From a virus, in the IMG/VR virus record IMGVR_UViG_3300037502_003856, positions 1-43,577 of that record: 43,577 nucleotides of DNA. One strand, 5' to 3'. Numbering within the stretch: position 1 is the stretch's first letter; every line of letters starts with the position of its first letter. A program made the position numbers and the translations under genes. Of this stretch, positions 11,007 through 35,555 are shown piece after piece. The notes beneath the pieces are model-generated. The model made no database searches and was not told the origin of the DNA. It worked only from the letters and a program-made list of their open reading frames with translations.

Positions 11007-13328
11007 ATGCGCAACATAACCGTAGTCAAACGCGACGGCACCCGCGAGCCGTTGGCATTGGAAAAATGGCAGGCACAGATCGCCAAGGTCTGCCAGGGCA
11101 TAGCAGATGTCAGCCAGAGCATGATCGAGATCAAGGCACAGTTGCATTTCTATGATGGCATCACTACCCGCGAAGTAGACAGCATCACTCTGCGTGCCAT
11201 AGTGGATCTCATTGATGTAGAAAGCAATCCCGATGTGGGCCACATCAACTATCAATACGTAGCCGGCAAACAGCGTCTCAGCATGCTGAGGAAGGATGTG
11301 TATGGCAGCTACGAACCACCCCGACTCTATGACATCGTACAACGCAATGTCGCAGTGGGACTGTATACTCCAGAACTGCTAGAGTGGTACACCGAAGCAG
11401 ACTGGGATCGTATGCAAGAAATCATAGATCACAGCAAAGACGAACAGTATGGCTATGCAGCCATCGAACAGCTGATAGAAAAATATCTGGTGCGCAATCG
11501 TGCCACCAAAGAGATATACGAAACTCCCCAGGTCAGATACATGGTGGCCGCAGCCACGGTGTTCCATCGTGAGGAACCCAACACCGCGCGCATGCGCTAC
11601 ATCAAGGAATATTACAATGCTGCCAGCGACGGCTTGTTTACTCTGGCTACTCCTGTTCTGGCTGGGCTTGGTACTCCAACCAAGCAGTTCAGTAGTTGCG
11701 TTCTCATACGCAGTGATGATGATCTTGACAGTATATTTGCTAGTGGTGAAATGATGGCCAAGTATGCCAGCAAACGCGCTGGTATCGGTCTAGAAATAGG
11801 ACGTCTACGTCCCCTGGGATCGCCCATACGTGGCGGAGAGATCATGCACACAGGCATGATCCCGTTCTTGAAGAAATGGTTTGGTGATCTCCGCAGTTGT
11901 AGCCAGGGCGGCATACGCAATGCCAGCGCCACAGTGTTCTATCCCATATGGCATTATCAGTTTGATGATCTCATAGTGTTGAAAAACAATCAGGGCACCG
12001 AAGAGACACGGGTGCGCCACATGGACTACGGTGTGGTGTTATCAGCGTTTTTCTGGCGCAGATTCCGCAACCGAGAAAACATCACGTTCTTTGATCCCAA
12101 CGAAGTGCCGGATCTCTACGAAGCTTTCTATCAAGACACCGCAAAGTTTGAAGAGCTCTATGTGCGTTATGAAAAGCGCACAGACATACGCCGCAAGGTC
12201 ATGGCCGCGGAAGAAGTGTTCAAGTCGGGCATACTCAAAGAACGCACAGACACTGGCAGGATCTATCTGGTGTTCATTGACAACGTCATGAACCAAGGTC
12301 CGTTTGATCCCGAGTATCACACCATATATCAGAGTAACCTCTGCTGTGAGATTTTGTTGCCCACACGGCCCTTCCGCCGCCTGGACGATGATCAGGGTCG
12401 CATCGCGCTGTGTACCCTGGGCAGCATCAACTGGGGCGCGTTCCGCAACCCCGAAGACATGCGCCGCGCCTGCCGCATCCTGCAGCGTAGCCTCTGCAAC
12501 ATCCTGGACTATCAGGATTTCCTCAGCATACAAAGCCGCCTCAGCAACGACGAGATACAGCCCCTGGGCATCGGCGTCACCAATCTCGCCTACTGGCATG
12601 CCAAGCGCGGTCTTCGCTACGGCGAAACCGACAGCCTACAGGAGGTGAAGTCATGGATGGAACACCAGGCCTATTATCTCACCGAGGCCACTATCGAATT
12701 GGCACGCGAGCGAGGGCCGTGCCTAGACAGCGCCCGCACCTGGTATGGACGTGGTGTGTTTCCCTGGGAGCGCAGGGCCCAAGGCGTCGACGAACTGGCG
12801 GATTTCACACCCGAGCTGGATTGGGAAACTCTCAGGAAAGGTATGACGGAACATGGAGTACGAAACGCTACTCTTATGGCTATTGCTCCTGTTGAATCTA
12901 GCAGTGTTGTTATCAATAGCACTAACGGCATAGAGATGCCCATGAGCCTGATCTCTGTGAAAGAGAGCAAGGCCGGATCATTCACACAGGTAGTGCCAGA
13001 GTATCAACGCCTCAAAAACCGCTATGAACTGATGTGGAACCAAACCGATTGCGTGGGTTACATCAAGACCGCGGCCGTGATGGCGGCCTATGTGGATCAG
13101 AGCATCTCCACCAACACCTTCTACAATCCGGCGCATTTTCCGGATCGCAAGGTGCCCACTACATTGATCGCGCGCAACCTCATGCTGGCACATCACTGGG
13201 GTCTCAAGACTTTCTACTACAGCCTCATCAACAAGCAAGGTGCCAAGAGCCGCGCCGAAGATGAAACACCCGTGGCACAGGCAGAGCCCGAACTGCTGGA
13301 AGAGGATTGTGCTGCCTGCAAACTATAA
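11007..13328 (+). CDS. nrdA: class Ia ribonucleoside-diphosphate reductase, alpha subunit
   Basis: 773 residues, full length. N-terminal ATP-cone (VVKRDGTREPLALEKW). Catalytic residues by alignment to E. coli NrdA: C231 (FSSCVLI, equivalent to C225), N444/C446/E448 (SNLCCEI, equivalent to N437/C439/E441) and C469 (IALCTL, equivalent to C462). Further conserved: RVRHMDYG, and FYYS near the C-terminus for radical transfer. The C-terminal redox tail ends DCAACKL, with CxxC rather than the CxxxxC of E. coli. Reduces NDPs to dNDPs for phage DNA synthesis; operon with nrdB and a glutaredoxin that can re-reduce the tail. Two short T-ending-codon islands (about 11637-11750 and 12853-12933) coincide with hydrophobic +1 frames. 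Confidence 0.97.
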   Translation: MRNITVVKRDGTREPLALEKWQAQIAKVCQGIADVSQSMIEIKAQLHFYDGITTREVDSITLRAIVDLIDVESNPDVGHINYQYVAGKQRLSMLRKDVYGSYEPPRLYDIVQRNVAVGLYTPELLEWYTEADWDRMQEIIDHSKDEQYGYAAIEQLIEKYLVRNRATKEIYETPQVRYMVAAATVFHREEPNTARMRYIKEYYNAASDGLFTLATPVLAGLGTPTKQFSSCVLIRSDDDLDSIFASGEMMAKYASKRAGIGLEIGRLRPLGSPIRGGEIMHTGMIPFLKKWFGDLRSCSQGGIRNASATVFYPIWHYQFDDLIVLKNNQGTEETRVRHMDYGVVLSAFFWRRFRNRENITFFDPNEVPDLYEAFYQDTAKFEELYVRYEKRTDIRRKVMAAEEVFKSGILKERTDTGRIYLVFIDNVMNQGPFDPEYHTIYQSNLCCEILLPTRPFRRLDDDQGRIALCTLGSINWGAFRNPEDMRRACRILQRSLCNILDYQDFLSIQSRLSNDEIQPLGIGVTNLAYWHAKRGLRYGETDSLQEVKSWMEHQAYYLTEATIELARERGPCLDSARTWYGRGVFPWERRAQGVDELADFTPELDWETLRKGMTEHGVRNATLMAIAPVESSSVVINSTNGIEMPMSLISVKESKAGSFTQVVPEYQRLKNRYELMWNQTDCVGYIKTAAVMAAYVDQSISTNTFYNPAHFPDRKVPTTLIARNLMLAHHWGLKTFYYSLINKQGAKSRAEDETPVAQAEPELLEEDCAACKL
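11617..11754 (+). other. candidate overprinted hydrophobic ORF (45 residues) inside nrdA
   Basis: In the +1 frame of nrdA, an ATG preceded by AAGGAA with a 7-nt spacer opens a 45-residue frame with two hydrophobic stretches (CLLWLLLFWLGLVL and VVAFSYAVMMILTVYLLVV). It ends exactly where nrdA returns to its usual codon choice. nrdA uses T-ending wobble bases throughout this stretch (gct act cct gtt ... ctt ggt act), which places T at the second codon position of the overlapping frame and makes it hydrophobic. This could be a real membrane peptide or a by-product of an imported or recoded segment. Reported as a candidate only. Confidence 0.3.
12853..12933 (+). other. candidate overprinted 26-residue transmembrane peptide inside nrdA
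   Basis: In the +1 frame of nrdA, ATG 12853 to TAG 12931 encodes MEYETLLLWLLLLLNLAVLL followed by SIALTA: a charged N-terminus and one continuous hydrophobic helix. The frame coincides precisely with a local run of T-ending codons in nrdA, over the conserved NATLMAIAPVESSSVVINSTNG active-site-loop region, which is also a region where inteins are known to insert in other ribonucleotide reductases. The upstream ribosome-binding site is weak (GACGGA 3 nt upstream, AAGG further away). Either an overprinted micro-protein or a scar of gene conversion. Confidence 0.25.
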
Positions 13329-17344: not shown

Positions 17345-18745
17345 ATGATGGTATCTACAACAGCTATAGATTTCGTTAGCCAAGCAGACAAGTTCCAGGG
17401 CATCACAGTGGCAGCAGATTGGATACGGGATCTCGAAAGCTCAGACAGCCGGTTGCACAAGGAAGCCGTGATCGAAAAAGCGCTGACAGCGGCCCGATTG
17501 GGCAGCGCCAACGCCCAGTGTTTCTTGTTCAATTGCTATCTGGCCTACAACCCATTTTTCGTTTATCATGTGCGCCAAGTGCCCGAAAGCACAGGCTTGG
17601 AAAATCGCGCCAATCCTTGGCCCAGATTCTGGGCCTTGTGTGAGAGCCTGCGCACCCGTAGTGTCACTGGTGGCAAAGCACACGCGGCCATACAACAGGT
17701 CATGCAAGAATTTGACAGCACCGAGTGGAATGGCATGTGCCGCAGGGTCCTGATCAAAGATCTGCGCTGTGGCATCTCGGAAAAAACGCTGAACAAGGTC
17801 CTGAGCCGCAGTGAATATCGCATCCCAGTGTTTACTTGCCAGCTGGCGCAGGACAGCTCGGATCGCGCAGATCGGCTGCAAGGCGTCAAGCGACTGGAAG
17901 TAAAACTGGATGGTGTGCGCGTGCTGGCCGTTATCACTGGCGACAGCGTCACACTGTACAGCCGCAGTGGCAAACCATTTGACAATTTCAGTGACGTCGA
18001 ATACGACATCGAACAGATATTGCCCAAGTTACGCGACTGCCTGGACTTTCCCTTGGGTCAGAATTTTGTGCTGGACGGTGAGATCGTGGGCGAGAGTTTC
18101 CAGAAACTCATGCGCCAGGCTCATCGCAAAACCGATGCTGACACCACAGGCATGGTGTATCATGTGTTTGATGTGATCCCACTGCAGGCCTTTGAATCTG
18201 GACGCTATGGTTCGAGCCAGAGCGAGCGTCTGGCTCAGTTAGACCGATGCCGGGATCTCATGCGCACCACCAATACCCTGCGCATCATGCCCGGTGAGAC
18301 TCGTGACCTCAGCACAGCCCAGGGACAGCAGTATCTCACTGAATTTTTTGAAGCCGCTGTGAGCCAAGGCTACGAGGGCATCATGATCAAAGATCCCACA
18401 GCGCCCTATGAGTGCAAGCGTACCAGCAGTTGGTTGAAATGGAAACCCACTATCACTGTGGATCTCACCATAGTGGGTTTTGAGCAAGGTACCGGTCGCA
18501 ATGCGGACCGGTTGGGTGCTATAATCTGCGAAGGAGTGGACGATGGACGTAATATTCGGGTCAATGTTGGCAGTGGCTTTGGTGATAGCGATCGTGATGA
18601 GTATTGGACCAATCGGGATCAGCTACTTGGTAGGATTGTGGAAGTGCAAGCCGACACAGTCTCACAAAACCAAGACGGATCCTACAGCCTGAGGTTCCCG
18701 CGTTTTGTGAGATTCCGTGGCTTTGAGCCAGGAGAGAAATTATGA
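17345..18745 (+). CDS. ATP-dependent DNA ligase (T4 gp30-like)
   Basis: 466 residues; ATG 17345 or the adjacent ATG 17348, both behind AAGGGG. Covalent nucleotidyltransferase motifs: motif I VKLDGVR with the adenylated Lys187, motif III DGEIVGESF, motif IV YEGIMIKDP, motif V SWLKWKP. The N-terminal 180 residues match the helical DNA-binding domain position of T4 ligase (KDLRCGISEKTLNKV resembles the conserved D-L-R-x-G motif). Seals nicks during phage replication and recombination. It is first in an operon behind a strong host-type promoter, so expressed early. The stop TGA overlaps the next ATG. Confidence 0.96.
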   Translation: MMVSTTAIDFVSQADKFQGITVAADWIRDLESSDSRLHKEAVIEKALTAARLGSANAQCFLFNCYLAYNPFFVYHVRQVPESTGLENRANPWPRFWALCESLRTRSVTGGKAHAAIQQVMQEFDSTEWNGMCRRVLIKDLRCGISEKTLNKVLSRSEYRIPVFTCQLAQDSSDRADRLQGVKRLEVKLDGVRVLAVITGDSVTLYSRSGKPFDNFSDVEYDIEQILPKLRDCLDFPLGQNFVLDGEIVGESFQKLMRQAHRKTDADTTGMVYHVFDVIPLQAFESGRYGSSQSERLAQLDRCRDLMRTTNTLRIMPGETRDLSTAQGQQYLTEFFEAAVSQGYEGIMIKDPTAPYECKRTSSWLKWKPTITVDLTIVGFEQGTGRNADRLGAIICEGVDDGRNIRVNVGSGFGDSDRDEYWTNRDQLLGRIVEVQADTVSQNQDGSYSLRFPRFVRFRGFEPGEKL

Positions 18746-26317: not shown

Positions 26318-26324
26318 AATGACT

Positions 26325-28205
26325 ATGAGCAAAGTAATTGGTATTGACCTCGGCACCACCAACAGTTGTGTGGCCATCGTAGAAGCAGGAAATCCCCGTG
26401 TGATAGAAAACAGCGAAGGTGCTAGGACCACACCCAGCATCGTGGCCTACACCGACGGCGAAGTCTTGATCGGAGCGCCGGCCAAACGCCAGGCCGTGAC
26501 CAATCCCCGAAACACCATCTACGCTGCCAAGCGGCTGATCGGTCGCAAGTTCACCGAAGAAGCAGTGCAGAAAGACATCAAGCTCATGCCCTATGAGATC
26601 ATCGAGAGCCAGAACGGTGATGCATGGGTCCGGGCGCAGGGCCGAGAATTGGCACCTCCCCAGATCTCCGCAGAAGTATTGCGCAAGATGAAAAAGACCG
26701 CGGAAGATTATCTAGGACATGAAGTTACACAGGCTGTAATCACTGTGCCGGCCTATTTCAACGACAGCCAGCGCCAGGCCACCAAAGACGCTGGAAAGAT
26801 AGCGGGATTGGAAGTGCTGCGCATCATTAACGAACCCACAGCAGCGGCCCTGGCCTACGGCGTAGACAAGACCGATCGGCGTGATCGCAAAGTGGCAGTG
26901 TACGACTTGGGTGGCGGCACGTTTGACATCTCCATCATTGAAATCGCTCATGTAGATGGTGACAAACAGATCGAAGTGCTGAGCACCAACGGTGACACAT
27001 TCCTGGGCGGTGAGGATTTTGACCAGCGCATCATGGATCACATCGTTGCCGAATTCCGTCAGCAGCAAGGTGTGGATCTATCAAAAGATCCCATCGCTCT
27101 GCAGCGCATCAAGACCGCTGCAGAACGCGCCAAGATCGAACTCAGTTCGGGTCAGCAAACCGAAATCAACGAACCCTACATCGCCATGAACAACGGTGCA
27201 CCGGTGCATCTCACCATGAAGATCACCCGAGCCAAGCTAGAAAGCCTGGTGGAAGAGCTCGTTGAGCGCAGCATTGAGCCTTGCCGTGTGGCCATGAAAG
27301 ATGCCGGAGTCACTGCTGCAGACATCGATGAAGTGATCTTGGTGGGCGGACAGACCCGTATGCCTATGGTGCAAGCAGCAGTGGAGAAGTTGTTTGGCCG
27401 TGCACCTCGACGCGACGTCAATCCCGACGAAGCAGTGGCCGTGGGCGCGGCGGTGCAAGGCGCTGTGCTGGCCGGAGATCGCACCGATGTGCTGTTGTTG
27501 GATGTCACGCCCCTGAGCCTGGGCATCGAGACCATGGGCGGTGTGATGACCAAACTCATCAAGAAAAACACCACTATCCCTACCAAACACAGCCAGATCT
27601 TCAGCACGGCCGAGGACAATCAGCCCGCTGTGACGATCAAGGTTTTCCAGGGCGAGCGAGAATTGGTGCAGCACAACAAGATGCTCGGTGAGTTCAATCT
27701 CGAAGGTATTCCGCCTGCACGTCGTGGACAGCCGCAGATCGAAGTCACGCTGGACATTGATGCCAACGGTATCATGAGTGTATCGGCCCGTGACAAGAAC
27801 ACTGGCAAAGAGAACAAGATCACCATCAAGTCGGACTCGGGACTCACCAAGGATGAGATCGAAGCCATGGTACGCGATGCCGAAGCCAATGCCGATGCTG
27901 ACCGGAAACAACGCGAGGTCATTGAAGCACGCAATCAATTGGATGCAGTGATCCACGAAACCCAGCGTGATCTCGACGATCACGGCAAGGACCTCACCGC
28001 AGAAGATCGGGAAAAGATCCAATCAGCGTTGACTGCAGGCCGCGAGGCGGCCCAGGGCGATGACGCCAAGATCATGGGCGAACACATCGCCAAAATCTAT
28101 GGTGTAGTGGCACCACTGCAGGAACGCCGGAATTCTTCGGCCAAAACCGAAGATACAAAACAGGACGACACAGTGGTTGACGCGGATTTCCGCGAGAGCG
28201 CATAA
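26325..28205 (+). CDS. dnaK: DnaK-type Hsp70 chaperone
   Basis: 626 residues from ATG 26325; the in-frame ATG at 26319 is only 1 nt from AAAGGAG and is unlikely. Nucleotide-binding domain motifs: [72 protein letters not shown]. Interdomain linker and substrate domain start [16 protein letters not shown]-terminal helical lid, ending [10 protein letters not shown] close to the usual EV(V/I)DADFEE tail. Near full length (E. coli 638). No DnaJ or GrpE is present in the window, so it must use host co-chaperones. It could support capsid folding, replication complexes or IscU (LPPVK motif). Followed by hsp20 with a duplicated leader. Confidence 0.97.
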
Positions 28206-34244: not shown

Positions 34245-35270
34245 ATGACATCTCGAATCGGTTTCTGTTGCAAGTGGTTATCAGACCCTGCAGAATGCGG
34301 CGGCATGAAAGTCAATGCCTCCAATCGTGAACTCAACGGTCGCAGCACCACCATGCGATGGCTGCGCGAACACCGCGACGAGGCCGAACAGCGACAGTGG
34401 GACATAATGAACCACAACGCGGCTGCGGCCCTGCGCATGGTAGAGACCGTGGGTGCCTTGTCTCCTGCCCGGCGCATGGTTCGCTTGGGTTCAGAGATGC
34501 TGCAAGGTTACACTGAATCAGACTGGAAAGCCTGGTGGCAGCGGCCAGAGATACAAGATCACTGCGAGCGCATATTTGCTCCCATCGGCCGACGTGCGCG
34601 CGAACTGGATGTGCGACTGAGTTTCCATCCAGGACAGTTCTGTGTGCTGGCTTCGGACAGCGACGACATCGTGGCGCGCAGCATCGAAGAGTTTGAATAC
34701 CATGCTGACATGGCCCGCTGGATGGGCTATGGCAACACCTGGCACGATCATGGATTCATGATCAATGTACACTTGTCAGGCCGCGGAGGCCCAGACAAGT
34801 TCCTGCAGACCTTGGATCGGCTCAGCCCCGAGGCGCGCAATCTAATCACCATAGAAAATGACGAGATAACAAATGGTCTTGACCGTACTCTGGCTGTGGC
34901 TCACCGTGTGGCCCTTGTGTTGGATATTCATCATCATTGGGTCAAGACAGGCGAGTATATCTCACCTCAAGATCCTAGGGTACAGCGTGTGCGTGAGTCT
35001 TGGCGTGATCAGCGTGCTGCTTGCCACTACAGTGTTAGCCGCGAAGATATTCTCGTCGGTCATTGTACCGGAACTAGACCAGATCTTGAGACTCTTGTTG
35101 CTGCTGGTTTCACCCGATCAAAACTGCGCGCCCACAGCGACTTCTATTGGAACACCGCTGTGAATGAGTGGGCTGCGACATTCTTGCCAGACTTTGACAT
35201 GGAATGCGAAGCCAAGGGCAAGAACCTGGCGCGTGATGGTTTCCTGCGCCAGGTGGGACTGTTAGACTGA
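34245..35270 (+). CDS. uvsE: UV damage endonuclease (UvsE/UVDE family)
   Basis: 341 residues. TIM-barrel with the family motifs RIGFCCKW, LGSEM, LSFHPGQFCVL, FMINVHLSGRGG, LITIENDE, LDIHHHW, and KLRAHSDFYW, whose His, Glu and Asp residues form the trinuclear metal site. Cuts 5' to UV photoproducts and other lesions, independent of the nucleotide excision pathway. Predicted to be expressed from a leaderless early-type transcript. Between about 34868 and 35112 the codon choice changes abruptly to T-ending codons (ggt ctt cgt act gct), and this region overlaps a 96-residue hydrophobic +1 frame. Confidence 0.94.
   Translation: MTSRIGFCCKWLSDPAECGGMKVNASNRELNGRSTTMRWLREHRDEAEQRQWDIMNHNAAAALRMVETVGALSPARRMVRLGSEMLQGYTESDWKAWWQRPEIQDHCERIFAPIGRRARELDVRLSFHPGQFCVLASDSDDIVARSIEEFEYHADMARWMGYGNTWHDHGFMINVHLSGRGGPDKFLQTLDRLSPEARNLITIENDEITNGLDRTLAVAHRVALVLDIHHHWVKTGEYISPQDPRVQRVRESWRDQRAACHYSVSREDILVGHCTGTRPDLETLVAAGFTRSKLRAHSDFYWNTAVNEWAATFLPDFDMECEAKGKNLARDGFLRQVGLLD
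34873..35163 (+). other. candidate overprinted membrane protein (96 residues) inside uvsE
   Basis: In the +1 frame of uvsE. Reads MVLTVLWLWLTVWPLCWIFI then a short basic linker (GSRQASISHLKILG), a second hydrophobic stretch (VCVSLGVISVLLATTVLAA), and LLLLLVSP, so three possible membrane helices. The +1 frame's second codon position equals uvsE's wobble base, and that base is T far more often here than in the flanking codons. Either there is selection for a hidden membrane protein, or a segment with different codon use was imported and the hydrophobic frame is incidental. The start has only a weak ribosome-binding site. Confidence 0.3.
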
Positions 35271-35555
35271 TTTTTTGGTGGTGCGGGGTTTGGCAGCGCG
35301 TGCCGCGGGTTTGGTGGCTTTGACAGCGGGTTTTTTGGCCGCGGGTTTTTTGGCAGTGCTTTTACGCGACCGAGTGGTTTTTTCCACAGCGTTGGCAGCG
35401 CGTGCCGCTGATTCCGAATTCAAACTTAACTCTAGATCGCGTTGATCACGGGTGTGTTTGACATCGTTGTTGGCATCCTGGACGGGACGGCTGTAATACC
35501 ATATCGCGGTGCCTGCCAGCGCGATGATCACTAATGCGAGTACGATTGTTTCCAT
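35262..35555 (-). CDS. membrane-anchored Lys/Ala-rich (histone-H1-like) protein
   Basis: 97 residues on the minus strand with AGGAGG 4 nt before ATG. Residues 3-21 (TIVLALVIIALAGTAIWYY) form a single N-terminal membrane anchor. The middle is charged. The C-terminal 40 residues are a histone-H1-like repeat of K-P-A-A-K units (SRKSTAKKPAAKKPAVKATK). The tail would face the cytoplasm and could bind DNA, RNA or acidic lipids, tethering nucleic acid to the membrane. Late-type promoter at 35578-35573. The 3' end overlaps uvsE by 9 nt, convergent. Confidence 0.72.
   Translation of the reverse strand: METIVLALVIIALAGTAIWYYSRPVQDANNDVKHTRDQRDLELSLNSESAARAANAVEKTTRSRKSTAKKPAAKKPAVKATKPAARAAKPRTTKKSV

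Follow-up and report, generated by a model that had tools for sequence, protein, structure and literature searches.

A gene for a predicted small membrane protein is very probably overprinted on uvsE in uncultured phages

An island of T-ending codons in the UV damage endonuclease gene (uvsE) of an uncultured virus is very probably the footprint of a second protein-coding gene, which is overprinted in the +1 frame of uvsE and is predicted to encode a small membrane protein. This high confidence refers to the overprinted gene as such, not to its role. The window analyzed here is the whole 43,577-nucleotide stretch of IMG/VR virus record IMGVR_UViG_3300037502_003856. Comparative sequence analysis demonstrates that the start is conserved, that the frame is open, and that the nested frame is under purifying selection. 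On this basis, selection maintains the nested gene in well over 100 related uncultured phages, and the gene is very likely to be real and translated.

The uvsE gene and its T-ending codons

The host reading frame (34245-35270, + strand) encodes a UV damage endonuclease of 341 aa, whose product contains a UvdE domain (Pfam PF03851, E=1.8e-28) and matches PHROG 8420 (E=9e-67) as well as the UV damage endonucleases 3tc3 and 2j6v in the PDB. A preliminary description of the window had reported that uvsE switches to T-ending codons from about 34868 to 35112 and then returns to its former usage, which was confirmed in three ways. T-ending codons make up 42 of the 72 T-capable codons (58%) in this interval versus 43 of 203 (21%) elsewhere in the gene, the best 72-codon T window was reached by none of 20,000 shuffles, and uvsE had the top 60-codon T run (0.60) among 24 scanned genes of the window, followed by nrdA (0.53) and the DNA ligase gene (0.50). 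The last 17 or so codons of the nested frame (35113-35163) are not T-rich and belong to its variable tail.

The T-rich runs of nrdA, which encodes the large subunit of ribonucleotide reductase, lie at 11607-11787 and 12867-12926, and the first of them has a hydrophobic +1 stretch (MLPATACLLWLLLFW...). They were considered as further nested-gene candidates and rejected on the basis of 80 relatives, in which the ratio of observed to expected synonymous change was about 1.0 and no conserved start was present. Another apparent candidate is a short T-rich run in the DNA ligase gene (18545-18604), where 13 of 19 T-capable codons end in T and the +1 frame is open and in part hydrophobic. Elsewhere in the window, a 628-aa DnaK-like chaperone gene (26319-28205) has its best matches (61-69%) in phage-labelled sequences and matches of 54-59% in uncultured phage records of 635-642 kb. 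Just downstream of uvsE, and overlapping its end by a few bases, a 97-aa open reading frame on the minus strand (35262-35555) shows an N-terminal hydrophobic stretch and a lysine/alanine-rich tail, and has no PHROG match.

The nested frame and its predicted product

The +1 frame opens with ATG at 34873 and ends with a stop at 35161-35163, so that the predicted gene (34873-35163 including the stop, + strand) would encode a hydrophobic protein of 96 aa, just as the preliminary description had claimed. Upstream of this ATG, the +1 frame contains stops at 34867 and 34852, and the remaining frames are full of stops. Of the two or three membrane stretches proposed earlier, two are clear (approximately residues 2-22 and 38-58), while the third (approximately 59-79) is marginal and not kept in all relatives. 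The first hydrophobic segment (TM1), including its run into IIIG (34876-34938, + strand), has a KD19 value of about 2.1, a helix at residues 2-25 in the AF2 model, and wobble invariants at uvsE codons 210, 214, 218, and 226. It overlaps the UvsE codons for the invariant His229-His231, and its end is therefore partly dictated by this His run. The second hydrophobic segment (TM2; 34984-35046, + strand) reaches a KD19 value of 2.4, contains conserved G44 and K58 in the alignment, and has an observed/expected synonymous ratio of 0.65 in group A, the group of carriers to which the window belongs. It is followed by a variable C-terminal tail (35047-35163, + strand), in which the stop position differs among relatives.

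Among carriers in general, the nested protein has 60-101 aa, with two hydrophobic segments, a basic loop, and conserved G23, G44, and K58. The first segment is poorly hydrophobic in group B, where 19% of the sequences reach a KD19 value of 1.6, and the two-TM topology may thus not be general. The AF2 model is a helical hairpin of modest confidence (pLDDT 73, pTM 0.37). A Foldseek search of viral structures with this model gave no match at E<=0.001, and no fold was therefore assigned.

Hydrophobicity was dropped as evidence for a nested gene, because synonymous permutation of codons within the island left the mean GRAVY of the +1 frame nearly the same (1.22 versus 1.28; 0.74 after permutation over the whole gene). 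The preliminary description had warned that T-ending codons automatically give hydrophobic residues in the other frame, making cause and effect unclear, and this caution was right; hydrophobicity alone proves nothing here.

Distribution among related phages

The occurrence of the nested frame was examined in 80 viral uvsE relatives, which were taken by UvsE similarity alone and not by the presence of a nested ATG. In the 55 nearest relatives (approximately 70-85% amino-acid identity), none with a readable codon lacked the nested ATG, and the frame was open to at least 60 codons in nearly all of them. The T excess and the hydrophobic +1 frame were likewise common to nearly all of these relatives and held at about 70% DNA identity, and the more distant ones were split between carriers and non-carriers. 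The alternative frame is thus conserved and open across divergent relatives belonging to several uvsE clades.

A wider set of 195 uvsE genes was used for the grouping of carriers, which fall into group A, group B (L163-L241), group D (L131 and L245-L253), and several smaller groups. Gene neighborhoods differ between group A and groups B and D. Parsimony requires 16 changes of carrier state on the tree of flanking protein sequence versus 54 with shuffled labels. Four carriers (L065, L075, L079, and L081) are nested among non-carriers on this tree, which suggests independent retention, regain, or recombination of the island.

A profile search with the nested protein found 132 viral loci, and all 80 of the 80 loci kept were the +1 frame inside uvsE. 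In ten large records of the carrier clade (209-364 kb), exactly one nested copy was found in each, and that of L005 is interrupted by TAG. The window protein has no Pfam or PHROG match, and members of the nested family gave only scattered weak matches to these databases, none of them a holin. Searches of isolate phages found no homologue, and those of bacterial and archaeal genomes found no relative. In all searches made, the nested protein was found solely within uvsE and never as a separate locus, from which a de novo origin within uvsE is inferred.

The nested frame is broken in four close relatives (L005, L006, L083, and L145), implying that the gene is dispensable somewhere. According to the preliminary description, stops in the +1 frame of close relatives that retain the codon island would count against a nested gene. 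In relatives with a thoroughly broken frame, the T excess has disappeared (L006, T3 0.15) or is reduced (L145, 0.43); of the relatives with a single stop, L083 (one TAG) retains the T pattern and L005 keeps all or much of it, both of which are consistent with recent losses. The largely intact nested frames of L083, L005, and L166 are each interrupted by TAG. Amber read-through was considered for these three and is unsupported, as TAG also ends normal open reading frames in L005 and L166.

Selection on the nested frame

Synonymous change in uvsE was measured as the fraction of shared residues with a differing codon over phylogenetically independent pairs. In group A, it dropped from 0.384 in the flanks to 0.157 in the TM segments and was lower in 35 of 35 pairs (p=5.8e-11); in group B, the corresponding values were 0.334 and 0.207, with a decrease in 16 of 18 pairs (p=8e-5). 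Non-carriers showed no significant difference (0.400 versus 0.391 in the flanks), and the loop between the segments was free in synonymous change (observed/expected 0.99). A synonymous drop was also looked for in group D (8 sequences), and none was seen. Parsimony counts of wobble changes, made at conserved-residue columns on a uvsE tree built from the flanks, gave a similar result: 0.147 versus 0.269 in the flanks for group A (p=2e-6), 0.144 versus 0.231 for group B (p=2e-5), and 0.275 versus 0.259 for non-carriers. In groups A and B, the reduction in host-frame synonymous change is thus limited to carriers and to the nested coding segments.

The wobble bases are also position-specific. At codon 214, the wobble base is T in 53 of 53 sequences although the UvsE residue varies (V, T, S, or I); G is the wobble base of codons 218 and 226 (51 of 53 and 53 of 53), giving Trp in the nested protein in most. 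Such constraint argues against codon preference or import of a foreign segment, since neither predicts a fixed T at codon 214 or G at the Trp sites. In group A, T3 was 0.56 in the TM segments, 0.23 in the loop, and 0.28 in the flanks. An OLGenie-like count gave a dSN/dSS ratio of 0.19 for the group A island, 0.64 for the group A flanks, and 0.52 for the same region in non-carriers. The dNN/dNS ratio was not decisive as a test, being below 1 in the same region of non-carriers as well, and dSN/dSS was more so. The nrdA gene served as a negative control: its T-rich runs showed neither reduced synonymous change nor a conserved start or frame across the 80 relatives, and T richness alone thus does not yield these signals.

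Start site and initiation

The nested ATG is built from the uvsE codons AAT, CAT, or TAT followed by GGN, and non-carriers have TGG at this place; the contrast between ATG and TGG at codon 210 is partly definitional, as the nested ATG was partly used in separating carriers from non-carriers. The region before the start in the window (34860-34872, + strand) contains a weak Shine-Dalgarno-like GAG (34863-34865), followed by a +1-frame TAA (34867-34869) two codons before the ATG. Such GAG codons are almost confined to carriers. The codon for Glu207 is GAG in 48 of 71 group A carriers versus none of 40 non-carriers, all of which use GAA (p=5e-14), and that for Glu206 is GAG in 31 of 36 group B carriers versus 1 of 19 non-carriers (p=4e-9). 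Stronger sites of the GAGGA type occur in groups B and D. The mean energy of the duplex with the anti-Shine-Dalgarno sequence was -5.5 kcal/mol in group B, -6.6 in group D, -2.3 in group A, and -0.5 in non-carriers, with control positions at -1.4 to -1.8. Carriers thus have a conserved start codon and a putative ribosome-binding signal, which is weak in group A (-2.3 kcal/mol, with controls at -1.8).

In 35 of 71 group A carriers and in 8 of 8 group D carriers, the +1 frame is closed by a stop two codons upstream of the ATG, so that an internal start would be needed in these carriers. Internal initiation rather than frameshifting is the likely route of expression. An alternative ATG is found two codons upstream in L204, L211, and L258, and a few codons downstream in L069.

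Alternative explanations

The other origin considered in the preliminary description was an imported segment, in which gene conversion from a T-ending donor, perhaps around an intron or endonuclease site, would have produced the island with the hydrophobic frame as a by-product. The patchy distribution of carriers (16 changes on the flank tree) fits such import, and the four carriers nested among non-carriers could reflect recombination of the island. However, the T enrichment forms two peaks with an unenriched loop between them, the wobble bases depend on position (including G at codons 218 and 226), and the pattern is kept among relatives at about 70% DNA identity. Moreover, the UvsE alignment is continuous across non-carriers, with no insertion that would be absent from relatives, no endonuclease or RNA-element match was found in Pfam, PHROG, or Rfam, and the +1 product is unlike an endonuclease. 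Import appears to be largely refuted by the constraint limited to the nested coding segments, and was considered very improbable. About equally improbable is a programmed +1 frameshift, which would fuse the N-terminal domain of UvsE to a membrane tail: the +1 frame is indeed open for 6-38 codons upstream of the ATG in some carriers, but it is closed two codons before the ATG in about half of the group A and all of the group D carriers, and the closest relatives retain the ATG itself, which is preceded by Shine-Dalgarno-like codons. Constraint on the wobbles by a conserved RNA structure, or by a regulatory element of the uvsE message, with no protein being made, would likewise lower synonymous change; this seems the least probable of all, since the RNA of 34840-35130 is no stabler than shuffled sequence (z +0.70), Rfam gave no match, and the constraint is seen in the hydrophobic segments and not in the loop, together with a conserved ATG and an open frame. 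An overprinted membrane gene, by comparison, is supported by the conserved start, frame, and hydrophobic pattern, the synonymous drop confined to carriers, the position-specific wobbles, and the Shine-Dalgarno-like codons.

The role of such a nested gene is a separate matter. Our tentative best guess is that its product may be a small membrane protein that serves in host takeover or in superinfection exclusion and is made along with the DNA-repair enzyme. The T4 superinfection-exclusion protein Imm is small and has about two membrane segments in the inner membrane; it is encoded by a stand-alone gene, and its likeness to the nested protein is a functional analogy only. Ranked next, and rather unlikely, is a function in lysis control as a class II holin-like or antiholin-like protein, which would leave the nested gene itself real and compete with the guessed role alone. 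The nested protein is like small holins in its size, its two TM segments, and its helical hairpin model, no T4-type holin was found above the cut-off in the ten large records, and in phiX174 a membrane protein for lysis, E, is encoded within gene D (PMC8227390). The size and topology of class II holins (two TM segments, approximately 65-95 aa) would suit the window protein as well as groups A and D, but the first segment is weak in group B and lengths range over 60-101 aa. On the other hand, no holin family was matched in Pfam or PHROG, the neighbors of uvsE include UDP-glucose dehydrogenase and nucleotide-sugar epimerase genes with no recognized lysis gene seen beside uvsE, and the basic character of the loop is weak evidence that it is cytoplasmic, in contrast to the N-in/C-in class II holins.

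Proposed mechanism and relation to known nested genes

The wobble base of each uvsE codon is the second base of a nested codon. Selection for hydrophobic residues in the two membrane segments would therefore fix T at these wobbles, and G where Trp is kept. Ribosomes would initiate inside the uvsE message, at ATG 34873, aided by the Shine-Dalgarno-like GAG or GAGGA codons, and the product would be an inner-membrane protein of 60-100 residues, usually with two transmembrane segments and a basic loop. UvsE would have come first, and the nested gene would have arisen de novo inside it and then been lost in several lineages.

The lysis gene E of phiX174 is also in the +1 frame relative to its host gene D. 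The arrangement described here belongs to a known kind, the nested genes of phages. Its classic example is E in D, in which a membrane protein that arose de novo is associated with T-ending codons in the ancestral frame (PMC8227390). In both systems, a known or predicted membrane protein is encoded wholly inside a second phage gene, whose own frame has T-ending codons; however, phiX174 (Microviridae) is a single-stranded DNA phage of 5.4 kb, whereas the carriers here include records of 200-360 kb and the host gene is a repair enzyme, and a sequence relation is not expected. The embedded spanins Rz/Rz1 of lambda-like phages are nested out-of-frame membrane-associated proteins that act as functional partners, Rz1 being a lipoprotein. 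They resemble the present case in being nested out of frame in tailed phages, and differ from it in their partnership and in the lipoprotein nature of Rz1, the nested protein here having two hydrophobic segments and lying in a repair enzyme gene. The spanins of phages have been covered elsewhere (PMC6139136). In addition, out-of-frame HNH endonucleases missed by annotation have been described in phage methylase insertions (ShiLan domain; PMC11855218). Like the nested gene here, these are hidden genes out of frame with a phage enzyme gene, but they lie in a mobile insertion, whereas the nested gene overlies a conserved UvsE domain and has neither an insertion nor an endonuclease signature. In a search of openly licensed papers, no earlier account of a gene within uvsE was found.

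Tiny phages offer well-documented examples of long nested genes, which have rarely been shown in large double-stranded DNA phages, in which genome size forces no compression. It seems reasonably probable that the nested gene arose de novo long ago, before at least two distinct large-phage lineages (uvsE groups A and B/D) separated, and that it founded a membrane-protein family confined to uvsE and hence invisible to gene callers and family databases. With known losses (L006, L005, L083, and L145), it may serve as a concrete case in which to test de novo gene birth, since both proteins would share one message. A membrane gene that overlies the conserved His region of a repair enzyme and shows selection in the wobbles of more than 100 uncultured genomes would mean that an entire conserved protein family can escape standard annotation.
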